Shown here one piece after another: positions 34,695-63,326 of a stretch of 64,000 nt of DNA (positions are counted from its first letter, which is position 1; the number at the start of each line of letters is the position of its first letter). The position numbers were made by a program, and so were the translations under genes. The DNA is taken from positions 62,001 to 126,000 of the forward strand of contig NW_026251426.1 of NCBI RefSeq assembly GCF_025118155.1, given 5' to 3'. The stretch is from Cokeromyces recurvatus (taxonomy: Eukaryota; Mucoromycota; Mucoromycetes; Mucorales; Mucoraceae). The notes beneath the pieces were generated by a model. That model made no database searches, was not told the origin of the DNA, and worked only from the letters and a program-made list of their open reading frames with translations.

Positions 34695-36386
34695 TTATTT
34701 TTGTTGAGGCTTTGAAAGTGCTGGTGTACGACGTTTGAGGTCAGTATTTGGTGTAGGTTTGGTAGTTTTGTTAAATTCTTTATCATCATCATTAACATTC
34801 ACTTTAACACCTGGAACAGCTTCTGTCTTTGCAACATTATTTAAACGACGTTCTTCGTCTTCCATAGCACGACGATATTTACCATCAATAAGAGGTTTAA
34901 ATGATTTGGAACGAGTTAAACCAAAATTAGTAGCACGAGGTTTACGAATATCAATATCCATTTCAGGTAACCACCAAGGTAATAAGGGCATACGTTCACG
35001 GAAAAAGTAACAAGCACCATGAAGATATTTAGAGAAACGAGGAACTTCATGAACTAAATGGGAATCAACTAATTTTGTTAACCACTCAGGAGGTTCTTGA
35101 CCTAAATGAGTTTGTAACTTGGTCTCTAGAACTGCATATGGGAAACGACAAATTTCAGTTTCGTCTAAGTCTGGGAAAGGATAATCGATACCAACATCAG
35201 GACGACGCCATTCACTTTCCTTTCTGCGTACCTTATCCCCCATATTATCTTCACGAATGAAACATAAATCAGTATCTAAACTTACTCTGACACGTTGGTC
35301 ACCGGGAAGTTGGAAGGCTGTACGATTATAGAAGGCACGAAGGACAGGCTTCAATCGTTTTTCTTTCAAAGATTTTTGAACACCAGTAGCAATAAAATGT
35401 GTATCCTTACAGATCTGCTCATCTACGCTCTTTGCCTTCAAACGTTCAGTAATTTCATCAGGAGTAAGTTCATATTCAACAAACTTTTGTACATCATCAT
35501 AATCAAGTCTAAAACGATCCTTCACTGAGGCACCCTCTAACCATGAAGCATGATGTGTCTTACGTTCAATAAAGACATTTTTAGATTCCATAGGACCATA
35601 CCAACGGAAACGGATAGCTTCAGCACCTTCATCACGTTGAAGACGTCCAGTATAAAGCTCGAAGTCTTCATTATCATAATAAACACTAGAGATAGCAGAA
35701 TCAGAGGCTTCATATTTCTTATCCTTATTAAAAATCAATACAGGAAGGTGTAACATGATAATCGATTTAACTTCAGTCACGTTATCCGGATGAATCCAAT
35801 ACTTGGCTGTAGCACGCTCAAAGGCATTCTGATCACCACCAGCAGCAGCATTACCAGAGCGAGGCTTACCTTGAAGACGACAAAGGTCATGTAAAGCAGA
35901 AATATATACAATAGCTACATCAAAACGTTGTTTATCAAGAGGCTTAGAACGCAATTGAGGAATAAAATCTTGTTGAAGACGAAGACCAGTCCATTTATCA
36001 TGTTTTTTAAGAATCTTTTGGAAACCAATATAATTTAAACGAGTAAATTTAGCAAGATCATTCACGTCGAAAAGAACTTCGGTAAGAGCATCATCCATGA
36101 TATTCCAGTTTTGTTCAGATGACCAAGAAGGGTTATTCATGAAAGTTTGTAAAGTTCTTTCACAATAACTAATTCTAGCCTCAACCTCTCCAAGTTTAGC
36201 GGTTATAAAATCATATACCTTTTCCAATTCATTCTCTAATAGATTAATAAAATCCTTCTCATCTTGATCAGTCCAGCCATGATCAAGTTGTCTCGCCTTG
36301 AGCTCAGTTTTTAATACGTTGTAATTGATATAAGATAAACGCCATGGGGCAAAAATACCTTTTTGAAGTTGCTCGGCGAATTTCAT
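34695..36386 (-). CDS. VTC4: Vacuolar transporter chaperone Vtc4-like polyphosphate polymerase, no membrane domain
   Basis: Single exon, 563 residues. Residues 1-~150 form the SPX domain (MKFAEQLQKGIFAPWRLSYI; the inositol-pyrophosphate-binding lysines lie in the KILKKHDKWTG segment). The VTC tunnel domain follows with the catalytic set intact: IRFRWYG (~258-264), VFIERKTHH (Lys ~275), RVRVSLDTDLCF, YAVLETKL and VPRFSKYLHG. In yeast Vtc4 these residues polymerise ATP gamma-phosphate into polyphosphate with Mn2+. After MDIDIRKP a basic tail ends ALSKPQQK with a stop at 34695; there is no DUF202 membrane domain, unlike yeast Vtc4 (721 residues), and no splice site that would add one is visible. 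It is convergent with NOT3 and in tandem with the next VTC gene. Confidence 0.92.
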   Translation of the reverse strand: MKFAEQLQKGIFAPWRLSYINYNVLKTELKARQLDHGWTDQDEKDFINLLENELEKVYDFITAKLGEVEARISYCERTLQTFMNNPSWSSEQNWNIMDDALTEVLFDVNDLAKFTRLNYIGFQKILKKHDKWTGLRLQQDFIPQLRSKPLDKQRFDVAIVYISALHDLCRLQGKPRSGNAAAGGDQNAFERATAKYWIHPDNVTEVKSIIMLHLPVLIFNKDKKYEASDSAISSVYYDNEDFELYTGRLQRDEGAEAIRFRWYGPMESKNVFIERKTHHASWLEGASVKDRFRLDYDDVQKFVEYELTPDEITERLKAKSVDEQICKDTHFIATGVQKSLKEKRLKPVLRAFYNRTAFQLPGDQRVRVSLDTDLCFIREDNMGDKVRRKESEWRRPDVGIDYPFPDLDETEICRFPYAVLETKLQTHLGQEPPEWLTKLVDSHLVHEVPRFSKYLHGACYFFRERMPLLPWWLPEMDIDIRKPRATNFGLTRSKSFKPLIDGKYRRAMEDEERRLNNVAKTEAVPGVKVNVNDDDKEFNKTTKPTPNTDLKRRTPALSKPQQK

Positions 36387-37016
36387 TTAAATTATATATA
36401 ATATATACGAAAAAAAAAAAAATAAAATTAAAAAATAAAAAAATAAAATAAAATAAATAAAACAAGTATTTGTTAATGTGGAAAAGAAAAAAAAGAAAAA
36501 CAAGAAATATCTTGGGACATAATAAAATAAGAATACCTAAAAATAGATAGCCTTTTTTTTTTTGTTGCGAAAAAAAAAAATAAATAACTGAAACGGTATT
36601 AATATTCAAAGTCCGACAGTTTACCATATTTTATACAAGCTCAGCCGTGGTTGAGTTTTTTCTAGTGAAGATTAAAGAATTTTGATATTAACGGATAAAC
36701 ATAAACTGTTTTAAGTCAATTGATTAAATATATTATTACAGAATTGAAACGTTAAATCATGTCTCCGTTTTGTCCAATATATTTTGATCTCTTTTGATAA
36801 ATATTTAATTAAAAAATAACTAATTAAGCTTGTATAAATATGGCAACATAACGCTTACTCATGATTTAGCAATAGGTGTAACTTTCTAAATACATAAAAA
36901 GTCCAAAATATATTTTCGATTCATTTAAAACTCCGTACACCAGCTTTTTTTTTTGTTTTTTTTTAAAAAATTCTCGGTTCTTTATTCTATTATATTATAT
37001 TATACAAATCAAAAAC
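36387..37016. other. Spacer between the two VTC genes
   Basis: About 630 bp, AT-rich, with (AAATA)n near 36420-36460. It should hold the VTC4 promoter and the 3' UTR of the upstream VTC gene. No phosphate-response motif could be assigned with confidence. Confidence 0.4.
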
Positions 37017-39381
37017 TTAAATGGTATTATTATTAGATTGCTGTTCTGTTTTATTATCGATCCCCAAGTAAGTATTTGAGCTTGGTGGATGCTCCCAACG
37101 AAGTATAAAGTTTAACTATTTTTTTTTAAAAAAAAAAGTAAATGTTATTTATATATTTATAGATATATATAATACATGATTTAAACAAGAATTTGATTCT
37201 TACCACCATTGCACCTAATATTAAACAACATAGACCAATAGGGCCATAAATATCATCATATCTGACATCAGGACGAGTTGACATTTGATAGGCTCGTAAT
37301 CGATATCTGAAAAAGGCATATAAAGCAATAACAAGCGAAATACCAAAAAATGTTCCACCTGCCACTGTACTTACATAATCACCAAAGTTAAGTAATGTTA
37401 GAGCTGCTGTCAGAATCAAGGCTGCAAACTGTAGCCAATGAATAAACGTTCTTTCATTAGCAAAAAATAATTTAGGCTCTAATCGATGTCCAACCGGCTT
37501 TAATTTCTTTTTCTTTTTTTCAGTCTTTTCTTTTTCTTCACCCATTTCGATCACAGCTGCTGTTCGAAGTGCATCCTTTTGATTGACAGTATTTATGTCT
37601 TGTAACATATAACTCATTGATTGTCTACTACGTTTATCGTTATAAATATCTAGAAAAGAAGGGGCGCGATGATTTTTAGAAGATTTACTATTAACACGAG
37701 AACGTAATTCGTTTGGCTTGCAGGTAGAAGAATCGAATGACATATAACTTGTAGAATCAGCAGCAACAGCAGCACCACCATCACCACCACCAGCAGCAGC
37801 AGCAGTATCCTCTACCTGTACTATAACTTCCTTATTGTTATTAACGGAGAATAAATCCTCTGTGTTCTCCTTTTTCTCCTCATCATTATCAGAGGTTGCA
37901 TATTTTACTAATTTTTGTTGATCTTCATCACCATCATCATCATCCGATTTTATTCCAAGTTGAGATTCTAAATATCCCATAAGATTGATACGACTGTGAC
38001 TAGAGGATTTTAAAATCTCATTTGACCCTTCCATCATCCATTTGTCTCGTTTCTCTACGTTACGTATATCAAAATCAATCTGAGATAACCACCATGGTAA
38101 TAGAGGTAACTGTGAACTCCAGAATTGTGCAACACCATGTACATATTTAGAAAAGCGGGGTATTTCATAAACAAGCTTTGAATTTAAAAGGTCTGTTAGC
38201 CATGAAGGTAAATCATCGATGGCTTGTACCTCTAGTATGGCATACGGGAATAGATAAACGTCGTTTTTATCGAGTGATTTAAAAGGATATTGTATATTAT
38301 CTTGATACCATGTTTCAGATCTATCACAAGCTTCATCTTCTCTTACAAAGGCCATTTCTGTATCCAGTGATACAACTAATGAATTGCTTTGAGAAGATTT
38401 AAATGAAAGATGATTAAAGCTCACGCGTAATTTGGCTTCAAGACGTTTATTCACTATTGTTTCTTGAATTGACCGAGCAGCTATTGCGTGAGATTGATCA
38501 TTGGCTTTCACTAACTCCAACTCCTTTTCAAAACTGTTCCCGTTTCCCATTAAAAAATCTTCGATTTGATCTTTGTCGACGGCTATTTTTTCTGACATAA
38601 GCTGAGCGCCATGACTTGTTTTTGTAAATGTATTGTATTCGATAAAGATGTGATCTACTGATGCAAGCTCCCCATTCCAGTAACATTGAATACTTTCATC
38701 AACATCATCATATTGAAGACGAGATGCATAATGATCAAGTTTGTCATTATCAAAATAAATTCTTGTTTGACGTTGTTCATGTTGTTCAAAGTCTTGAGAT
38801 GAATCGTCTGTATAGAGTGGCAAATTGAACAAAAGGATTGCTTTGACTTCTGTTATATTTTCAATATGAACCCAATAACGAGCTCGTCGTCTAACTGTTT
38901 GGGTTTTACGCATTTCGGTCTTACAACACGTATCGATAAGGGAAGCTGCCCTTATTAAAAGTGAATCAAATCTTTGAGTGTCAAGGGGTCGTGTTCTGAT
39001 GATTTCTACCAAAAGAGGACTGCTGTCAATAAGTGTTAACTGATTATGTTCTTCAATTAAATTTTTTAATGCCTTAAAATTAAAACGGGTATATCGACTC
39101 AATTCGAGTACTTCTTGAAAGATTCCTTTCGATGTTTGTTCATCCAACATACGCTGGCAATATCCAATCTTTGTTTCAATCTCACGTTGCTTCTTATTAA
39201 TGAAAATATCTACTTTTTCTACTTCAAGACGAATGGCAGATTCAAAATCCCTTTCATCTTTTGTTGACCAAAGACCTTGGTCACAAATGTTGTACAAGCC
39301 GTCATAAATGGCTTCATAGGCAACGTATTCATTCTCCCAAGGTTTATAAATATTTTCCTTGAATTCTAACAAAAATGACAT
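37017..39381 (-). CDS. Vtc2/Vtc3-like SPX-VTC membrane protein with degraded active site
   Basis: Two exons (37204-39381 and 37017-37115) give 758 residues. SPX domain (MSFLLEFKENIYKPWENEYV), VTC domain, a long acidic Ala/Gly-rich linker, a second basic motif (SRVNSKSSKNHRAPSF) and three transmembrane helices (WLQFAALILTAALTLLNFG; TFFGISLVIALYAFF; GPIGLCCLILGAMVLNFIL). The last exon completes helix 3 and was found by a donor after GAMV and an in-phase acceptor. The catalytic positions of Vtc4 are replaced: IRFRWYG becomes IQCYWNG, ERKTH becomes EYNTF, and LETKL becomes LEVQA. It is therefore probably a regulatory/accessory subunit that anchors the complex in the vacuolar membrane. Neighbouring VTC4 has the opposite composition. 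Confidence 0.9.
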
Positions 39382-40971
39382 TTTTTCATATTCAAATAGA
39401 CGAAAGGAAAAAAAAAAAAAAAAAGAAAAAAGAAAATAATTGTTATTTCTTTTTTTTTCGATTGAATGTAAAATTCTACCAAGTAAAACAGAAGTTGATA
39501 ATTATGGAGGAAAGACAGCTTGCGTTTCAGAGCGCTATTTATAGAAGAAGAAAAAAAAAATACAAGTAGGAAGCAATTGATTTCCTTTTATTTTATATAT
39601 TCTTTCATGTTTATTATTCTTTTTTATTAAATGCTTTAGGCTTTTCTTAAAAATATATTGAAACGACAATCATTATTGAACCTCTTAAATATGTAGTAAC
39701 AGTGAATAAAAGTATGTAATGGCAATCTTAATATGTTTATTCTTCCTTTTTTTTTTTGTAGAGAGGGTTTTGCAGTTATTCGTTTTTATATGTCAATTCT
39801 ATATATGATAAATATTTCACTCACTATGGTGCTATCCTATATCATATTATTGAGCTTAAATACACGTATGTCAAGAGCCTAATACGATTTATTTACAATC
39901 ACTGACAAGTACACTAAACTATAAAAAAAAAATACAAAAAGCGAAAATTGTCCAAATTTAGGTATATTTATATATTTTTTTGTTTTGGTTTTTTTTTTTT
40001 GTGTTTTGGTTTTATGTGTGTGGTTTTTTTTTTTTTTTTTTGGCTAGCGCGGATTTTTTTTCAATTGAAAATAATAAAAAAAGAAAAATTACATTGTGGC
40101 CCTTTGTTTATACAATGAGTCACTTTCTTACTATTCTTGTGAAACAAATGTCTTGATTTTACGTCATATTGTATTTCCTTTTTAAAAAAAAAATTCTTTC
40201 TACAAAAGTACTCTAAAAATAGAATTTAATTTTTTTGAAAAAACATTATCATTCGCCATCTATAGCATAAAATTGTTCTTTTAGAATATTGAGTGTATAT
40301 TTTTTATCATACTTTATATTACATAAATATACCCCTACTATCATAATTTCGGAAGTTTTATTACGGGAAAAAAACCTCGGCCCATAATTATCAAAGGATA
40401 GTGTAAACTACAATTATTATTTTTTTTTTTTCATAAGGTGCAGATCAAATATTATTAATAGAAAAGTAAGTTGTATATTATTATAGAAAAATATCGGCTT
40501 TCAAAAAAAAAAAAAGAAAAGATGTGGAGTAATTACATTTGAATCCTTGTTAAAGACGATCCTACTTCTTTGGTAAATAAAACATTGGATTTATACAGAA
40601 GGAGTGAATAAGAAACTATATTTGAAGAAGCATAAGAATACTCTTAATATTCGAATCAGATTGTAAATATACAATGATTTGTTTGCATAGAAAAAAATAA
40701 TTTGGGGAAATTATGTATCAATAAAAACAATGTTTGGATTTACACAATATGTCCTACTTTATAACAATTACAATAGAATCTTTACAGCAAGTATATAAAT
40801 TTGAAACAATTAGGTCAAATTTTATTATTTTTTTTAATTAATTAAATATTTATTGTAAATTTAAGAAAGTATTTGCTTATTTTAAAAGCTATTTTTTATT
40901 CCTATGAAATGATTGGACTAAATTATATAAAAGCAATACAACCGTACTTTCGTCTTGTTAACTATTGTATC
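39382..40971. other. Intergenic, AT-rich
   Basis: About 1.6 kb between two minus-strand genes. Poly-T runs at about 39750, 39990 and 40026. No coding frame, RNA gene or repeat family recognised. Confidence 0.5.
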
Positions 40972-47205: not shown

Positions 47206-50200
47206 ATGCCTGAAGACATGTCTGCTCGTGATAAGAATTGGCAATTTTTCCCGCAAACAAATAATAATAATAGTAAGTTTAAACTGACATATATTTGTTT
47301 GATTAATTTTTTTTTAACACATACAAATATACTTCTAATAGATGATAAACAAACAAAAGATCCACGGTTAAAGGTAAAAGAGAAAAGCTGTGGTTACCCT
47401 TTTTTTTTTTTTTTTTTTTTTTTGTTTATGCTTTAACACTTTATTATTTCCTTTTTTTTTTAGCCTCATGCTTTGAAAAAAAATACAATAATAAAAAAGC
47501 AGAAATTCGGAAGTTTCATGGGAAAAATACTTCTTCAAAGTAATAATAAAAAATCAAGCTCTGAGAAAGGAGGAGTTGAACAGCAAAAAGCTTTAAAAGA
47601 AGAACCTTTTTCTGGACTTTTTCAGGTCAGGAAAAATCGAATTGAACAATCTAATACCTGTCGATCAACGAATAGCAATGCTGTGGAAATAAAGTTTAGC
47701 TTTAAAAAGGACTTGGCAAACTTTCCCCCCTCTGTTAAAAACTATCGCATTGTTAATGGAAGGAAAACACGCTGGGATATTCAAGATTCTCCTTCTACAC
47801 AGCAACAACATGCCGATGAGAAAAACGAACAAGAAGAAGATGAAAGCAGCCATTCATCTGATGAGGATACAAACTCTATTAACACCTTACAATCTGATGA
47901 CGATGTATTAGGTCCTTGGATTGAACTTGGCATGATTGATCCTATTACTACTACTACTACTACTACTACCCTTGATACAGCTTTAAAAAAAAATTGGCCC
48001 GCTGATGTCTGTCAAGAATGCTTGTCACACAATCAAAGCCGAGGACCATTTGAGTCCATCAATTTATGCGCTCAATGTAAAGTTGAATGGAATTTTCTTT
48101 TTCGAGACTTGGAAAATAAAATGAAAGGTTTTTCGTCATTGTCATTGGATAATAATAATAAAAAAAGAGTTGAGAAATTTTCATCGAAATCTACTACTAC
48201 TACTACTATAAAGAAATCTACTATTATTAGTAAGCCTAATAATAATAATAATAATCAAGCTACTCATACCAACAGACAAAAAGCGATCATTCCGCCTACT
48301 AAATCAAATCATTTTCAAAAAGCAAATAAAAAAATAATGGCATCCAAAAAGAATCAAGATTTATTGCTAAAGAAAAAACCTACAAGTGATCACATCACAA
48401 CAGGAGCATTTTTGACACGAAAGACGGCTTTAACATTAGCGGATCCAGAAAATGGTTTTTATCCTAATCCATACGGCTTTCTACATCACCAGCATGTTGA
48501 AGTTTTGAATATGAATGGGCTTTGGTATCTTGGAAGGCTTGAGATGATGGATAAGGGTAAAGTTAAAGTAAAATATCTTGATTGGGACGATCAAGAAGAA
48601 TGGATAATTATGGGTAGCCGACGTTTAAGAATAGCAGAAGATCAATCTATTATAGCACGTGAAAGTCAAAATAAGATGTCCAGTTCGGAAGATATAATTG
48701 ATATTGTTAATGTAGATAAAAAAGGTATCCTATCATATTATATAAATAGCACTTTTTATAATAATGTCATTTTATATATATTTATATATTTATATATATA
48801 TTTATATACAGATAATATTACATCGCCTTTAAATAATAAAAAGGAATTATTAAATAATTCTACACCAGTTTCAGTAAATAAAAAGAAGCTAGATGATGAT
48901 TATATATCTCAAACTTTAGATAAAGATCCTATGCATATCTTTAATAATAATGAGGTATTTATGACTCGAAAAATGGCTCGTGAATTAACAGATCAATTTG
49001 GATTCAAACCAAATCTATTTGGATATCGTCGTAACCGTCCTGTAATGATTACTTCTTTTAGTGGCTCTACAAAGAAGAAAAAAGAAGAACATTTGGGTTT
49101 TTTAAGAGAAATGAGCCAAGACCAAGTGCGAGTTTGGTACCCAGACCTTCATCTTTCTGAATGGCTTCCTATTGGCACTCGTCGAATAAGAGTCATGACG
49201 GAAGAAGAAGAAGAAGAAGAAAAGGAGAAGGCTTCCTTAATCAATAAGGTCGATTTGGATATTGAAGAAACAGCTCCTTCGTCTCAAACAGTTATAACTT
49301 CTTTAGCAGAGGAAACTCGTACGAAGGATGATGAGAATACTGTAGTACAAAAATCAGATACAAGTAATGAAACTAGCGACACACCTATTTCAGTAGTAAA
49401 AAGAGGCAGAGGGAGACCAAGAAAAAAGTCATCCACAATAGATACAGGAATAAATCATTCTATTATAAAGCCAACAAAATCTCAAAGGAAAAATAAAACA
49501 GAGGTATCGACTAAAAAAAATCTGAGTGTAATTTCGTCCATAGAAACAGATACTAGTAAATTTCCTTCAACGCTATCAAATAACAATAGTATCTCTTCTT
49601 CATTTACTACTGCCTCAACTGAACAACAGGATAAAAATTCCTCTTCTTCAGTTCATGAATTCTTGACTACAGGAGCATTTGCAACAAGACATACTATGCG
49701 ACAACTTCGGGATGAAAACGGATTTATTCCTAATCCATATGGTTACAAATATAAATTGGCAGTTGAAGTCCTCAATACACGGTCAGGGAAAGCTAAGTTT
49801 TGGGAACATGGAACATTAATAGAGATGCGGCCCGGCCAAGTTAAAGTACATTATGATGGGTGGGCCGATATTTATGACGAATGGATTAAAGTGGGTAGTC
49901 GCAGAATTCGCATCGCATCACAAGAAGAAAATAGTATATCAGATATAGCAAACTCGAATACTGCTGATATAGGGAATACAGATCTCTTAATAGCAGAGCA
50001 AAATCCAGAGTTAGTAGAGGAAGTCAGGAAAAATCGAAAGCATCAGATCATTCGTCCTGAAGATTATCAAAAATTAGGTTTACTTGTCAGCTTAGATGAA
50101 TTGGCTGAAAAGGAAACAAAAAAAAGGAAAAAACGACAGGAGAAAATGAAAGTCCAACAACAAAAACGAAAAATATCAGATTATCAACATAGTGATAGCA

Positions 50201-52211
50201 ATGGTAGTAGTGGGAAAGAAGGATCGGATAGTGATCATCAGTATACTCCAGTTAGTAAACAAAGGACCAAAAAAATTCGTACAACAAAAAAGAAAAAGAA
50301 ACATCAAACATCAGCTTATTCTAACCATCATAGTTGCAAGCATCATGCCTCAACAGAGACTGAAAAGATAGATACCATTTTAACAGAAACAGATGGAGCA
50401 CAGCAAAAAATAATCTCCCTTCGACTCGCTCAAGCTAAGGCCTCTGGAAGTAGTCAGTTTGTGGCAAATGTTTATGGTTATGATTATATGCAGCATGTTA
50501 CTGTACTTCATTTTGATAAAAAAGTATATGAGGGAAGACTTGTAAGTATTAATAAGAATAAAGTAAGAGTGCATTATTGTGGCTGGCTTGATGCCTTTGA
50601 TGAATATATCACGCTTGGTAGTAGAAGAATACAGCCTATTGAAAACGATCATGAAGTTGTATGTCTTGAGCCTGGTTATAAAGAAAGATACGAAAGTAAT
50701 AACAGTATATTGACGGAGAATATAGCAACCACTGTTGATCCATGTTGTTGTCATAAGGATCAGAAACCACATACTATTAATCGATTTAGTAGAAAAAGGC
50801 TAACATTAGATGACGCGAAACTTAATGAAACTTCAGATAATGATAGTGTAGAATATCATAAAGATATGATAAATGCTGATGATGAAGAAGGTAAAAATAA
50901 TACAATTTCCAGAATAGTTAATTATGTGCTAAAAATTAAATTAAAAAAAATATATATATATATACATATATAAATACATATATATTTGTATGTAGTTATT
51001 GAAACTGAGAATTGGAAAGTTTATTGTAACCAATGCAACATAGTTATTAAGCAGTTTAGGTATTATTGTACTTATTGTGAAACACCATCTCTTGGATATG
51101 ACTATCAAAGCTTTGAACTTTGTCTTAGGTATATTAAGCAAATACAAACACTCACACCCATATGTATATAAATCGTTATCTTATTTCTTGACTTTATTCG
51201 TTGTATAGGTGTTTTGATCAAAATTTTCCTTTTTGGCATGAACATCCTAGATCCAGTTTTGCAATTCAAGCTGTCATTGACGCAGAGATAGGGCCTAGAC
51301 CAATTAAGGGAGAACTTGTGACAATTTGGGAAGAAGATATTTTAGATGAAACACCATTAGAGGCATTGCCAGATACAAATGAGCCATTAATAAAAGATGT
51401 AAACGTGATCAATGACTCGTCATCTCAGGGATTTGTTACTGCAAATACTATCCAGGAAACTAATTCGAAACATCGTACTGAAGAAGAATCAATTGATGCA
51501 AGCAAGGTTTTTACCGGAGATGCTCCTATAACAACAGATCAAGGATATAAATATCTTAAAAAATGGAGACGTAGAAAAGTATGTGCATTTTGTAATGATG
51601 ATGATGATACTTCTGAAGAGCTTGGTTCATTTATAGGTCCTTTTATTATTGCAACATTTAATAAAAACGGTATTGAGAAGAAAAGATCATTTTGGGCTCA
51701 TGATGCGTGTGCTCGATATTCACCTGAGGTATTCTGTACTCCTGAAGGTAAATGGTATAATGTTACTTTAGCTTTGCGTAGAGGTAGAGGCATGGTAAAA
51801 ATCTTTTTTTTTTTTTTAAGAATTTATTTGTTCATCTAAAATTAATTTTTTCTTTATTATAATAGAGATGCCATAATTGTAAAGAAAAAGGTGCAACTAT
51901 AGGGTGCTTCGAATCAAAATGTTCGAGAAGCTTTCATTTACCATGCACTCAGAAACCTGTTAGCTATTTTAAAAACGGTGTTATTTTTTGGTGTGGCATT
52001 CATGAAGCTTATTACAATAAAATAGGTACATATCAATTAAAAACATAACAAAAAAAAACAATATATTAATAGCTTACTATAGATACATATGTTAATATTT
52101 TCAATTGTGATGGCTGTAATAAAGAACTTGCTGATGAATCTTGGTTTACATGTGTTCCATGTTCGCAAAGCTATTTTTCTTCGTTTGATCTTTGCATGGA
52201 GGTAGAGATTG

Positions 52212-52246
<35 letters not shown>

Positions 52247-53036
52247 TAGAATTTATACATATCATATTGATATTGTTTGTAAAATATAGTGCTTTGAAAA
52301 TTTTCCTAAAGATCATCCCCATAATGAAGACGAATTTGAAGAAACATGTAAGACTAAAAAAAATTACAAAGTAATAGAAAATAGCTGATAATACTTAATT
52401 GATAGCGTTTGCCATTATAAAAGAAATGGAGGCGCAAAAAGCTACAGAAATTGCACGTGAAAAAGAAGAACGCCGATTAGCAAGTAAGTTATATGCATAC
52501 ACATATACATATATAAATATTTAATTTTACTGAAATATATGCATGCTTTAGATGCTAAGAAAAGAAAGAGACCTCTTTTTCCAAAACGGCGACGCAAATT
52601 AGCAAATGGTTCTTTACCTGTATCTTGTTGCTATTGTGGAACATATGATGCAGATAGTTGGCGAAAGGGTTATGATGGAGGTGTCATTATGTGCAATAAA
52701 TGCTTTGAGTTAGCCCTATTAATTGATAACGATGGTGAGCCTCTTCCAGAAGACATGCCTCTTGTTATTGAAAATGATAACAATGAAACTCAAATAATGC
52801 AACAACATCGATTACAAAATCGATATGTTTCTTCTATTGAAGACTATTCGCATAAACCATATCTGACTCGTGATACATTATCATTAACTAAATTTAACGA
52901 GTCACCTACTAGTATGCGATTAGCTTCATACGAGCCGCAACCAAACCAGCTATTTTCTCTCGTCTTTGATTCAACATATTTTGATATCCCTGGAAGGGCC
53001 CCTCGTTGGGCTTCACATTCAGGCACTGATTATCAT

Positions 53037-53093
<57 letters not shown>

Positions 53094-55390
53094 AGAGAGA
53101 GATAATTTTATTGTCTATATTCTAATATATTTTAATTTATTAGGTACATGGTTACCGCAAACTGTTCGTAGGTAAGACATTGAATTCTGATTAATAATAG
53201 TTATTATGCATAATATATACAAAACACAACTTATATTTAGGGCTATTCTGAAGTATACAGCTAAAGATGAGAGAATATTATCTAATTTTTTGGGAAGAGG
53301 TAAGCTTAGGGTTATAATAAGAATCTCATATACGCATTACAACTATTTGTTTTTGTAGGTACTGACGCTATTGAATGCTTTTTGTTACAAAGAAAGTGTT
53401 GTGGTGTTGATATCAATCCTGTAAATAAAATAATGATATTATTATATATAAAGCCTCGCTTTAACGTAACTTCTCTATGTAGTCAGCCATAACGTTATCT
53501 CAACGTAATTGTTGCTTTGAAGTACCTCCTGGGTTAACAAGTGCTGAATACCGCCCAATCATTGCTCAAGCAGACTCACGACATTTATCTGGTGCTCTAT
53601 TCACTGATGAATCTTACCATCATATTCTTTCTCATCCACCATATAAAGACTGTGTAGCTTATTCAACTCATTTAGATGGTGACCTTTCGAGGTAATGTAT
53701 ATTCTATTTTATCTTTTTTTTTTTCGATTTGATAGACAATCCGTTATGATAAGGAATATACATTTATATTTATTTTTTTTTTCTTTAGATTCACAAATAT
53801 TGAAGAATTTAAATTAGAGTATATAAAAGTAGTGAAAGAAAGCTGGAGGTAATTTTTAATCTCGTAACTTAAACATGAATATATTTTCATTATTTAAACA
53901 ATGCATATAAAAATATAGGTTATTAAAGATGAGTAGAAGATTAACTTTAGGAATTGGTGATAACAGAGAACATTGTTTTTATATACCAGTTAGCTTCCAT
54001 CTTATACGCTTGTATATTGATCATGGATTTGAATTGGAGGAATTGGTAAGCACTTAAATGATATAGACAAATAAATAAATATTTACTGTTACTTTATTTT
54101 TTTTTTATTTGGGAATTGAAAAGATTATTAAAAGACAACGATATTGCTCAGCATTCGGTTTAGGAACATACTTATGTGTCCAGTTTGACTTTTTAGTGTT
54201 CACACATGAGTTTATAGCAACTTTTAAGAAAATCCCAATGGAAAACATTAACCGCATGTTGATTGAGGATAATTTAGACAATGGTAGTATTAAGTTGTTT
54301 ATTAAACGAATGTCAATGAATATATTATTGACTTATACATTTGTACAGATACTAGCGAAATAATCGAAGTCAGACGTACTTTACGTGGAGTTCCTTCTTC
54401 TGCCATCATGAGGAAGAGCAGAGTGATGGGAACAGTATGGATATTTAAACCAACAACTAATTATAGTTTTTCCCAATTATGTGTCTCACGAATGGTAGAA
54501 AGGTTTGGTAAAGATGATGGCAATTGGGAATATATTGAACTAAAATTAAAGGTTTGCTTATTTATAAGAATAGAAAGACAAAATTCACTCACCCTGCTTT
54601 TTATTAGAAGCAGCAAATGCACTCTGCCATTTTAAAAACAGCAAATACTCAAACAGGGGATTTAATAGATAATGGAGGTATAAAAAAAAATAGATAAGAT
54701 AACATTTTGATTAAAATCAATTTTATAGTCATCAAAGTGTTGAAGAAAAATGGAACAGCGGAGACTGAAGAAAAGGTTACATTATCAGAATACGAGCAAG
54801 AACGTTTAAAAAGAATACAAGAAAACAACAAAACACTACTTAAATTGGTATATCAATTTCGTACAGAATAGATTTATTTAGACTAATATTTATGTAACAT
54901 ACTATAGGGATTAATATCTGAGCTTAGTGAAGAATCTGAAGATGTTATACATTGCGATACAATGATGAATAAAGCTCCATATAATGGAGGTGATCTGGTA
55001 TTAATGGTGACAGGTCATATAGAACCTATTCTACCGGGCCAAATCAATTGTTACAGAAAATCTATAGTTTCACTTGCTAACGAAGCTATTGATAAACTAG
55101 CCACTAAAGGCATGTTAATCATAGGCACTCAGGATATTCGTGATCCTATTACAGGAAAGTTATGGCCACTAACGATGCTTGTTCTAGAGGATATCGAAAG
55201 GGCATTAGGTTGTAATGTTATAAAATTGAAGGAAATGGTTGTTACAGTACCAGATGGTTATTCAAAAGATAGAAAAACTGAGTACGAGCCTGTACAGGAA
55301 CAAGAAGAAGACTTTATAGATATTGAAACCATTGAACATGATCATTTACCTATTGTGCATGCTATTTATCTTGTTTTCCAAAAATTATAA
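47206..55390 (+). CDS. Giant chromatin-reader / amino-type DNA methyltransferase fusion
   Basis: Twenty-two exons (first 47206-47272, 47342-47373, 47464-48724, 48812-50890, 50996-51128, 51209-51794; then 51866-52025, 52083-52201, 52290-52347, 52406-52483, 52552-53037, 53144-53171, 53241-53299, 53359-53420, 53483-53691, 53789-53848, 53919-54045, 54124-54283, 54349-54551, 54608-54677, 54729-54847, 54908-55390) give about 2,212 residues with phase kept throughout. Domains: GATA-like C2-C2 finger (~212-240); four Tudor/chromo-barrel repeats (~341-426, 500-580, 739-822, 983-1063); ZZ finger (~1147-1200); extended PHD (~1313-1438); second ZZ (~1440-1500); GATA-like finger (~1547-1580); SAM methyltransferase (~1685-1930) with FLGRGTDAIE (motif I), GVDINPSAI and ILSHPPYKDC (motif IV); then a second methyltransferase-like half (~2050-2212). 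Probably N6-adenine or N4-cytosine DNA methylation in the nucleus; substrate is inference. No nuclear signal was assigned, but basic patches (KRGRGRPRKK, an AT-hook-like motif) are present. Confidence 0.85.
48725..48811 (+). other. In-frame, stop-free intron of the methyltransferase gene
   Basis: This 87-nt segment has a gtatcc donor and an atacag acceptor, a length divisible by three and no stop codon, and would encode 29 hydrophobic residues (Ile/Tyr-rich) unlike the polar flanks. It lies between Tudor repeats 1 and 2. Splicing is favoured, but retention would not break the protein. Confidence 0.7.
53040..53090. repeat. 51-nt poly-A tract within an intron
   Basis: Begins right at the donor (gtaaaa) of the intron after exon 11 of the methyltransferase gene and is followed by (GA)n. 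One of many long A/T runs in this window. Confidence 0.9.
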
Positions 55391-62134: not shown

Positions 62135-63166
62135 TTAATAATCAGTCCAATGACCTTTAGCTTTAATAACTGCCTTGCAACGGTTTGGCATGGAGTCTAT
62201 AACCTTTAAACAATCCTCCATGGTTATCTTGTGGTACCATATATGGGTGATTCTTTCGAACAACTCTCTAATGCCCTTAGGTGGAGTATCATATTCATTC
62301 AACTTGCGTTTCAGAAGAGCCCACATATTTTCGATTGGATTAAGATCTGGAGATTGTTAGGGCCAATCCATTAGCTCATACTGCTGGCTTTTAAAATGCT
62401 CGCGTGCAAGTAAAGACTTACGTTTAGAGTCATTATCCTGCTGAAAAACAAGTTGATTTCTTTTCAACCCTGTTTCTTTACACACCATTTTAATTGTATT
62501 TTCAAGTTCATCCTTCAAAATATCTATGTAAAGCTGACCATACATCGTAGAGTCAATTTTACACATCCATCCTACTCCAACACAAGTTATACAACTCCAA
62601 ATCATAACGGAGCCACCTCCATGCTTGACATTCTGCTTGACATGCCTAGGTTGAAGGCGTTCATCATCCCTAATCCAAGCCCAGACACGACCGTCTGAGT
62701 TGAAACGATTTATCTTCGTCTCGTCAGACCATATAACTCTTCTCCAATCGTCGATCGTATAGTCTTTATACTTTTTAGCCCAGCGGAGTCTTTCTTTAAT
62801 GTTTTTTTGACTGAGTGCAGGCTTTGCCTCCTTCTCCATAGATCCGAGACCAGCCGATTTTAAAGCCCGTCGAACTGTTTCGGCGGACACAGACTTGTCT
62901 AGCTCTGCTTTGAGTGCTTTTTGGACTTGTACGGCGTTGTCTAGACCTCCTCTAGTGACCTTATGAACACAATAGTGCTTTTCAGTCTCCGTAAGTTTAA
63001 TAGGTCTACCTCCTTTTAGCGTCCCACGTCCTGGAAAAACCTCCTTTCTGATACGAGACACAGTTGCTCTACCCACCTTCACTTCATCAGCAATTTGTCG
63101 GTCAGAAATTCCGGCATTAATCTTGGCAATAATTGTGTTTCTTGTCTTAGTAGATAATACGCGCAT
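62135..63166 (-). pseudogene. Tc1/mariner (DD34E) transposase C, one nonsense codon
   Basis: A 344-codon frame interrupted by a single TAA (62355-62357), where the family has a small residue between DWP and QSPDLNPIE. Two HTH modules (IIAKINAGISDRQIADEVKV; SAETVRRALKSAGLGS), GRPIKL linker, SDETKINRF, GGGSVMIWSCI, QQDNDSKRKS and SPDLNPIENMW give a DD34E core; the usual KHTS after the second Asp is KRKS. It is the best preserved transposase here. A terminal-repeat-like tacagtgac lies just upstream (63246-63254), and its 3' end is replaced by MITE copy 1. Confidence 0.92.
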
Positions 63167-63326
63167 ACTTGCATAAAAATGCTTATGTAAGTAATAAATA
63201 AAAAATGAAAAATTACAAAACTTACCTTACTTATAGTTAATAGGGGTCACTGTACACAGTTTTCGCTATTATAATATGCTGGGTACAATTAAATACCATA
63301 TTGTGGTACTACTTTGTAAATCCTGT

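Follow-up and report, generated by a model that had tools for sequence, protein, structure and literature searches.

A single gene of the fungus Cokeromyces recurvatus (Mucoromycota; Mucorales) joins an array of putative histone readers to an amino-methyltransferase of prokaryotic restriction-modification type. It lies in a window of 64,000 nucleotides, i.e. the whole stretch of DNA analyzed (assembly GCF_025118155.1, contig NW_026251426.1, positions 62,001 to 126,000 of the forward strand). As outlined in Table 1, the encoded protein carries four Royal-family (Tudor/MBT) repeats, a ZZ finger, an extended PHD finger, a second ZZ finger and a GATA-like finger, followed by the amino-methyltransferase. 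Judged from its sequence, the protein is probably a captured two-lobed restriction-modification DNA methylase which was made chromatin-guided, N6-adenine being a likelier target than N4-cytosine. The fusion itself is real, intact and unusual; by its domains it appears to be of a kind that reads histones and writes on DNA, and writing activity is likely.

One open frame for readers and methylase

When the gene was rebuilt from the DNA, its 22 exons joined into a single reading frame of 2,212 residues with no internal stop, and all 21 introns, 51–106 nt in length, were bounded by GT and AG. This confirms a preceding sequence-only reading, which had proposed a single reader/methylase fusion of about 2,200 residues in 22 exons. 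The least certain splice of the model is the removal of intron 3 (87 nt), since this intron is open in frame too. An unspliced open stretch in exon 11 (52488–53105) holds the GATA-like finger together with the methylase's first motif, WASHSG, so that the fusion is independent of splicing; another one (51192–51839) holds the end of the first ZZ finger and the first part of the extended PHD finger. It is therefore very improbable that readers and methylase are two genes wrongly joined by the model, as the sequence-only reading had considered. A retained intron 3 would favor such a split, whereas exon 11 unites both parts and exons 4 (last Tudor repeat) and 5 (first ZZ finger) lie 105 nt apart, seemingly too close for a terminator plus a promoter.

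Bacterial contamination is unlikely in view of the intact 22-exon frame, the introns inside the methylase and the ordinary eukaryotic neighbors in the window (Not3, PP2A-like HEAT repeats, VTC/SPX proteins and Mre11). The host assembly comprises 28 Mb in 64 contigs. When the protein's own core, its reader block and its third Tudor repeat served as genome queries, no other gene was retrieved. A genome search with PF01555, for which exons were searched singly, gave no match and missed this gene too, so that paralogues are not thereby excluded. Elsewhere in the genome three MT-A70 matches, C5-methylase matches on two contigs and one PF02384 match were found, a set consistent with an early-diverging fungus.

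For the reader half, Pfam scans were run on the whole protein and separately on cut pieces, using curated cut-offs. The four Tudor repeats of the sequence-only reading were recovered, repeats 1 and 3 by Pfam and all four through a genome search with repeat 3, which retrieved the other three (repeat 1, 1.8e-17; repeat 2, 2.2e-10; repeat 4, 5.7e-10) and nothing else; aligned to repeat 3, they are 39–56% identical. The predicted model of repeat 3 consists mostly of beta strands at low confidence (predicted local distance difference test, pLDDT, 67). In a Foldseek comparison with the PDB its first rows included the PHF20L1 Tudor, FMRP Tudor and Sfmbt MBT domains, interspersed with unrelated proteins, and no match fell below an E-value of 0.001. 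The extended PHD finger was likewise found by Pfam. Each of the two proposed pairs of small fingers held up for one member: the second ZZ finger and the GATA-like finger at aa 1546–1580 gave matches below cut-off, the first ZZ finger and the N-terminal finger only weak ones, and the whole-protein scan gave no ZZ or GATA match. By these profiles the earlier list appears to name the right kinds of domain, two of its entries being weak. An AT-hook-like KRGRGRPRKK also lies between Tudor repeats 2 and 3 (window 49399–49434; PF02178, E 0.69, below cut-off).

Table 1 Features of the fusion gene and its product; positions refer to the window, and E-values to Pfam unless stated otherwise.
Feature	Position	Strand	Residues	Remarks
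Whole gene	47206..55390	+	2,212 aa	22 exons, 6,639 nt, stop codon counted in
N-terminal CxxC...CxxC finger, GATA-like, weak	48001..48084	+	213–240	KDM6_GATAL 0.013
Tudor/Royal repeat 1	48400..48636	+	346–424	Tudor_4 5.7e-7 (piece, above cut-off), 1.3e-4 (whole protein, below cut-off); 56% identical to repeat 3
Tudor/Royal repeat 2	48949..49206	+	500–585	No Pfam match (piece scan); 39% identical to repeat 3
Tudor/MBT repeat 3	49663..49926	+	738–825	MBT 3.3e-6 (whole protein), 9e-5 (piece), above cut-off
Tudor/MBT repeat 4	50419..50640	+	990–1063	MBT 0.026 (weak); 39% identical to repeat 3
ZZ-type finger 1	51010..51245	+	1152–1203	Spans intron 51129–51208; Cys/His spacing; ADA2-ZZ 0.013, ZZ 0.17, weak
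Extended PHD finger	51576..52003	+	1314–1432	Spans intron 51795–51865; zf-HC5HC2H 7.4e-8 (whole protein), 7.5e-10 (piece), above cut-off
ZZ-type finger 2	52103..52331	+	1447–1493	Spans intron 52202–52289; ADA2-ZZ 1.4e-4, ZZ 0.0067, below cut-off
GATA-like finger	52614..52718	+	1546–1580	PF00320 5.5e-4, below cut-off; shares exon with methylase start
Catalytic methyltransferase lobe	52992..54231	+	1672–1904	Exons 11–18; PF01555, PADLOC MTase_II; 34–42% identity to prokaryotic relatives
Motif I, LSNFLGRGTD	53278..53366	+		Spans intron 53300–53358; compared with relatives, D replaced by S (S1710) and T by D (D1718)
Motif IV, HPPY	53633..53644	+	1787–1790
Second lobe, methylase-like but degenerate, motif I absent	54232..55387	+	1905–2212	Profile match; collinear with C-terminal half of relatives

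Two side observations concern the surroundings of the gene, both on the minus strand: a transposase-like open reading frame near the end of the window (62357–63226; HTH_Tnp_Tc3_2, 2.5e-14), and two adjacent VTC-domain genes at 34695–39501, of which one also has SPX and the other DUF202.

Family of the methylase and its prokaryotic relatives

The catalytic core (aa 1672–1904, cut one residue earlier in the computations) matched the N6_N4_Mtase family PF01555 with an E-value of 2e-9 (38.2 bits) and the full protein did so with 7.3e-7 (29.8 bits), the curated cut-off being 26.7. The PADLOC profile MTase_II (PDLC03376) reached 2.5e-37, aligning core residues 5–233 of 233 to profile positions 29–249 of 249, and PHROGs assigned the core to a DNA methyltransferase (3.6e-11). 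By classification, the C-terminal half of the fungal protein thus scores as a DNA methyltransferase of the Type II restriction-modification type. With the whole protein as query neither MT-A70 (PF05063) nor the MetB family (PF02384) was matched up to an E-value of 1, and HPPY stands in place of DPPW, the motif of Mta1. An N6-adenine/N4-cytosine methylase, rather than an MT-A70, C5 or SET enzyme, had been read from the letters, and the Pfam, PDB-profile and PADLOC searches bear this out. Furthermore, the first stretch of the core aligns to the C-terminal part of PF01555 (160–220 of 221), from which it follows that motif I precedes motif IV and that the order is not the permuted beta order. Both motifs named in the earlier reading, FLGRGTD (aa 1712–1718) and HPPY, were located; it had overlooked the substitutions within motif I.

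The last ~550 residues of the fungal protein (aa ~1650–2212) are collinear with a prokaryotic family of about 480–575 residues, whose members were gathered by scanning plasmids, viruses and genomes. Of at least 570 loci confirmed in the genome scan (at least 587 candidates), 80 were kept; they stem from numerous bacterial phyla and also from archaea, Jordarchaeia and Lokiarchaeota among them, and their core is 36–42% identical to that of the fungus. The scans gave 91 loci in all; two without a match to the fungal core at an E-value of 1e-10 (L098 and L099, judged by their absence from the list) were left out, leaving 89. The fungal C-terminus was aligned with 46 relatives, each 480 residues or longer, and the eight rows inspected span the whole C-terminus. 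These 46 are single open reading frames, and the idea that the viral-contig locus L010 represents two adjacent genes which were later fused in the fungus was dropped. Phage and viral sequences yielded little when only the fungal core was used as the query. In the relatives a helix-turn-helix (HTH)-like segment precedes the methylase (HTH_28 8.8e-4 in L038, below cut-off); no counterpart of this segment was visible in the fungal protein.

In the fungus the second half of this collinear region matched the family profile with 50.8 bits, whereas 1,000 shuffles reached 8.3 at most, and it retains 13 of 16 near-invariant positions. In the relatives this second segment opens with TTTVWI, which parallels the TTVWSF that opens the first, and comparison of the two halves profile against profile gave a probability of 99 and an E-value of 9e-18, the first-half profile being built from 41 of 42 rows of low diversity (number of effective sequences, Neff, 1.9). 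According to these profiles, the second lobe is a duplicated methylase fold which has lost motif I. A direct BLASTP comparison of fungal residues 1681–1910 with 1911–2212 did not detect the duplication (best E 0.31), so that it is visible only through the profiles of the prokaryotic family. The predicted model of a Jordarchaeia relative, computed from 42 sequences, was confident for most of both halves (pLDDT 84.1; predicted template modeling score, pTM, 0.87).

The fold comparisons gave a different picture from the sequence profiles. In the structural alignment by VIA-align, Trm11-type tRNA methylases came first among the 50 matches listed, and DNA methylases were absent from the 50 matches listed in each of two fold comparisons, by which families outside these matches are not excluded. 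Over the C-terminal region, for which the sequence-only reading had suggested structure and profile comparison, the profiles consequently speak for DNA methylases and the structural alignment for the Trm11 type. The protein might then methylate RNA, as a Trm11/TrmN-like enzyme anchored to chromatin and acting on nascent transcripts, which we regard as improbable. Archaeal Trm11 and bacterial TrmN, which have tRNA m2G activity and bear an RNA-binding THUMP domain, came out as the closest solved fold among the matches listed by VIA-align, but they are far weaker by sequence profile, the PDB profile comparison by sequence placing DNA methylases ahead of them by many orders. The PADLOC assignment likewise speaks against an RNA methylase. 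Neither THUMP nor another tRNA-binding domain was matched in the whole protein by Pfam up to an E-value of 1, except for a sub-threshold PUA_4 match (0.025) inside Tudor repeat 1. Moreover, some relatives stand in restriction-modification loci, often a few bases from the endonuclease gene; such DpnII neighbors, or tight operons with uncharacterized genes, point to DNA as the substrate.

Several observations on these loci stand apart. An uncharacterized protein of ~450 residues (c449) follows the two-lobed methylase in 11 loci (L022:6277-7626, L031:1717-3066, L051:6514-7860 and eight others), and in seven of them it starts within about 30 bases of the methylase end. Another protein of ~185 residues (c185/c189), with invariant D, H, K and QE..N residues, overlaps the methylase end (L030:6138-6692, L029:6299-6853, L033:6296-6850, L019:6275-6841 and others). 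Representatives of c449, c185, c189 and c358 gave no Pfam match up to an E-value of 0.01 and no PADLOC match; we consider all four no more than candidate nucleases, c449 being a candidate restriction enzyme. On the viral contig of L010 (1672-7060) two more open reading frames, methylase-like by their motifs, flank a split two-lobed methylase. In Fusobacterium and two IMG/VR contigs (L009:3294-6660, L011:2997-5663, L014:443-3141) Dam-DpnII restriction loci contain a short HPPY methylase as their additional methylase, in the place occupied by DpnA in pneumococcus.

Catalytic competence, target base and origin

HPPY is present in the fungus and in all 89 loci, although this universality is partly by construction, because HPPY sat in two of the scan patterns; motif I sat in none. 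Of the conserved positions the fungal protein keeps 4/4 in HPPY, 3/3 in DLS, 3/4 in motif II and 7/10 around motif I, together with the G, D and R of GDxR, DIN, and the F-G-GT of motif I. Several observations weigh against an active enzyme. The relatives' LDxF and GTT in motif I have become LSNF and GTD in the fungus, and the D and T thus replaced by S and D occur in all 85 scorable loci (four of the 89 were unscored), which renders activity uncertain. In the QHNC-TGFW block only 6 of 15 positions are kept, in the NFLLLAHEY block 6 of 14, and over the first lobe 71 of 121 near-invariant positions, i.e. 50 are changed. The changes in the first lobe and in the QHNC-TGFW block indicate that the target may have shifted or activity been lost. 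Accordingly, the captured methylase could be nearly or entirely without catalysis and serve as a chromatin scaffold or DNA-binding reader, or as the inactive partner of a MetB-like or MT-A70 enzyme; the genome's three MT-A70 matches and its PF02384 match could then do the writing, and an inactive methylase partner is known in Mta9, as described in the part of PMC11258239 considered. We hold this to be rather unlikely, though clearly less so than an RNA methyltransferase: the retained motifs and a frame intact over 22 exons would not be expected of a dead enzyme. As far as its sequence allows, we favor an active DNA writer as the probable state of the fungal protein.

With regard to the methylated base, DpnII cleaves GATC and is blocked by N6-methyladenine (6mA). 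A DpnII endonuclease lies within 1.5 kb in 28 of the 89 loci, namely 8 of 49 long-form loci and 20 of 40 short-form ones, where long means at least 455 residues and truncated reading frames such as L060 and L061 fall under short. It is chiefly the seven long-form loci in which DpnII is present and Dam was not found in the stretch examined that point to 6mA at GATC in some of the family's members. Among the short forms three count as having DpnII only, two of which (L009 and L089) do have Dam, 1.7 and 2.5 kb off. Neither DpnII nor Dam is nearby in 41 of the 49 long-form loci, so that the GATC argument reaches only a minority. By analogy with the relatives that accompany DpnII-type (GATC) endonucleases, N6-adenine seems likelier than N4-cytosine; GATC is not necessarily what the fungal enzyme targets, since the conserved block is changed.

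In order to place the fungal protein, a tree was computed without L012, L013, L095, L097 and rows below 190 residues, long forms here being reading frames of at least 400 residues plus L010 and L075. In the free quick tree the branch leading to the fungus was very long (6.22) and fell to the short-form side of a split that had a value of 99 in the Shimodaira-Hasegawa-like approximate likelihood ratio test (SH-aLRT), which counts against a long-form origin. When the fungus was constrained to group with the long forms, the likelihood came out 17.09 units above that of the free quick tree (approximately unbiased test, p-AU 0.734); the free search had missed this constrained tree. The better constrained likelihood and the shared second lobe favor a long-form donor. 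The tree places the fungus unreliably and singles out no donor clade; horizontal acquisition from a prokaryote appears to be the origin of the methylase.

Possible mechanism and known amino-methylation writers

For the captured and chromatin-guided methylase we propose the following course. A prokaryotic two-lobed Type II methylase, with a catalytic and a degenerate lobe, would have entered a fungal, probably Mucoromycota, genome, acquired introns and become fused behind four Royal-family repeats, ZZ-ePHD-ZZ (ePHD, extended PHD) and GATA-like fingers, the reader array standing where the prokaryotic N-terminal HTH-like segment was. The readers would dock onto histone tails, the catalytic lobe would hold S-adenosylmethionine via FLGRGT and GVDIN, and the methyl group would be passed to an exocyclic amino group gripped by HPPY. 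The degenerate lobe may steady the DNA or keep the fold together, a role played in other amino-methylases by inactive partners such as METTL14 and Mta9 (the latter in PMC11258239).

The prokaryotic long form of PDLC03376 (e.g. L022 from Jordarchaeia, L038 and L044) resembles the fungal protein in having motif I before IV, [AST]HPPY and a second degenerate lobe. It differs by the lack of histone readers, the HTH-like segment, motif I LDxFxGxGTT, the QHNC-TGFW block and its frequent position beside restriction or uncharacterized partner genes. Few bacterial amino-methylases wired to chromatin are known in eukaryotes, a published case being N4CMT of bdelloid rotifers. According to the part of PMC8885841 considered, N4CMT belongs to the permuted beta subtype, has SPPY and a single chromodomain at its C-terminal end, and makes N4-methylcytosine (4mC) in E. 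coli. Like the fungal protein it combines a bacterial PF01555-type amino-methylase with a Royal-family histone reader, whereas in the permuted beta subtype motif IV, [SDN]PPY, precedes motif I and the fungal enzyme has motif I first, HPPY and a second degenerate lobe. The rotifer likeness drawn in the sequence-only reading thus holds for the possible way of working and fails for the methylase families.

Among fungal enzymes MetB (PF02384) is the main writer of asymmetric 6mA in Mucor and has an MmeI-like target domain (PMC11258239, in part). Like the fusion it is a prokaryotic-type DNA methylase acquired by early-diverging fungi; unlike it, MetB belongs to another methylase family, and chromatin readers are not mentioned in that portion of the paper. 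MTA1c, a complex of the MT-A70 proteins Mta1 and Mta9 with P1/P2 (section 11 of the same paper), shares with the fusion the pairing of an active with an inactive methylase in fungi, but consists of separate proteins of the MT-A70 family. In the parts considered, a 2026 review on fungal DNA methylation (PMC13297926) names MTA1c, MetB and a METTL4-like enzyme as 6mA writers, contains neither 4mC nor Tudor and mentions PHD once (UHRF1); a 2025 survey of 6mA (PMC12695648) concerns MT-A70 families, and a study of eukaryotic 5-methylcytosine (PMC12344493) mentions rotifer, Marchantia and fungal acquisitions. The fusion was not found described among the matches listed in searches, only some of them directed at it, of the open literature of PubMed Central, outside of which stand most subscription papers and all bioRxiv preprints, so that it may be in print elsewhere. 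The methylase family, a different one from that of rotifer N4CMT, was not found reported from any eukaryote in the literature examined. More tentatively, and short of probable, the gene could represent a third independently captured writer of fungal DNA amino-methylation beside MT-A70 and MetB, which would be histone-guided, bring its own inactive lobe and place 6mA or 4mC at a sequence derived or departed from GATC.

If the reading as a chromatin-guided captured methylase is true, the gene would add another case to the few bacterial amino-methylases wired to chromatin in eukaryotes, one in which the methylase is of another family, the reader array is far larger and both lobes were carried over. 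6mA is abundant in early-diverging fungi and genetics is feasible in some species; the fusion could make the question whether histone marks direct DNA amino-methylation directly testable in these organisms. On the prokaryotic side, it draws attention to a bacterial and archaeal methylase family whose uncharacterized partner genes are candidate restriction enzymes.

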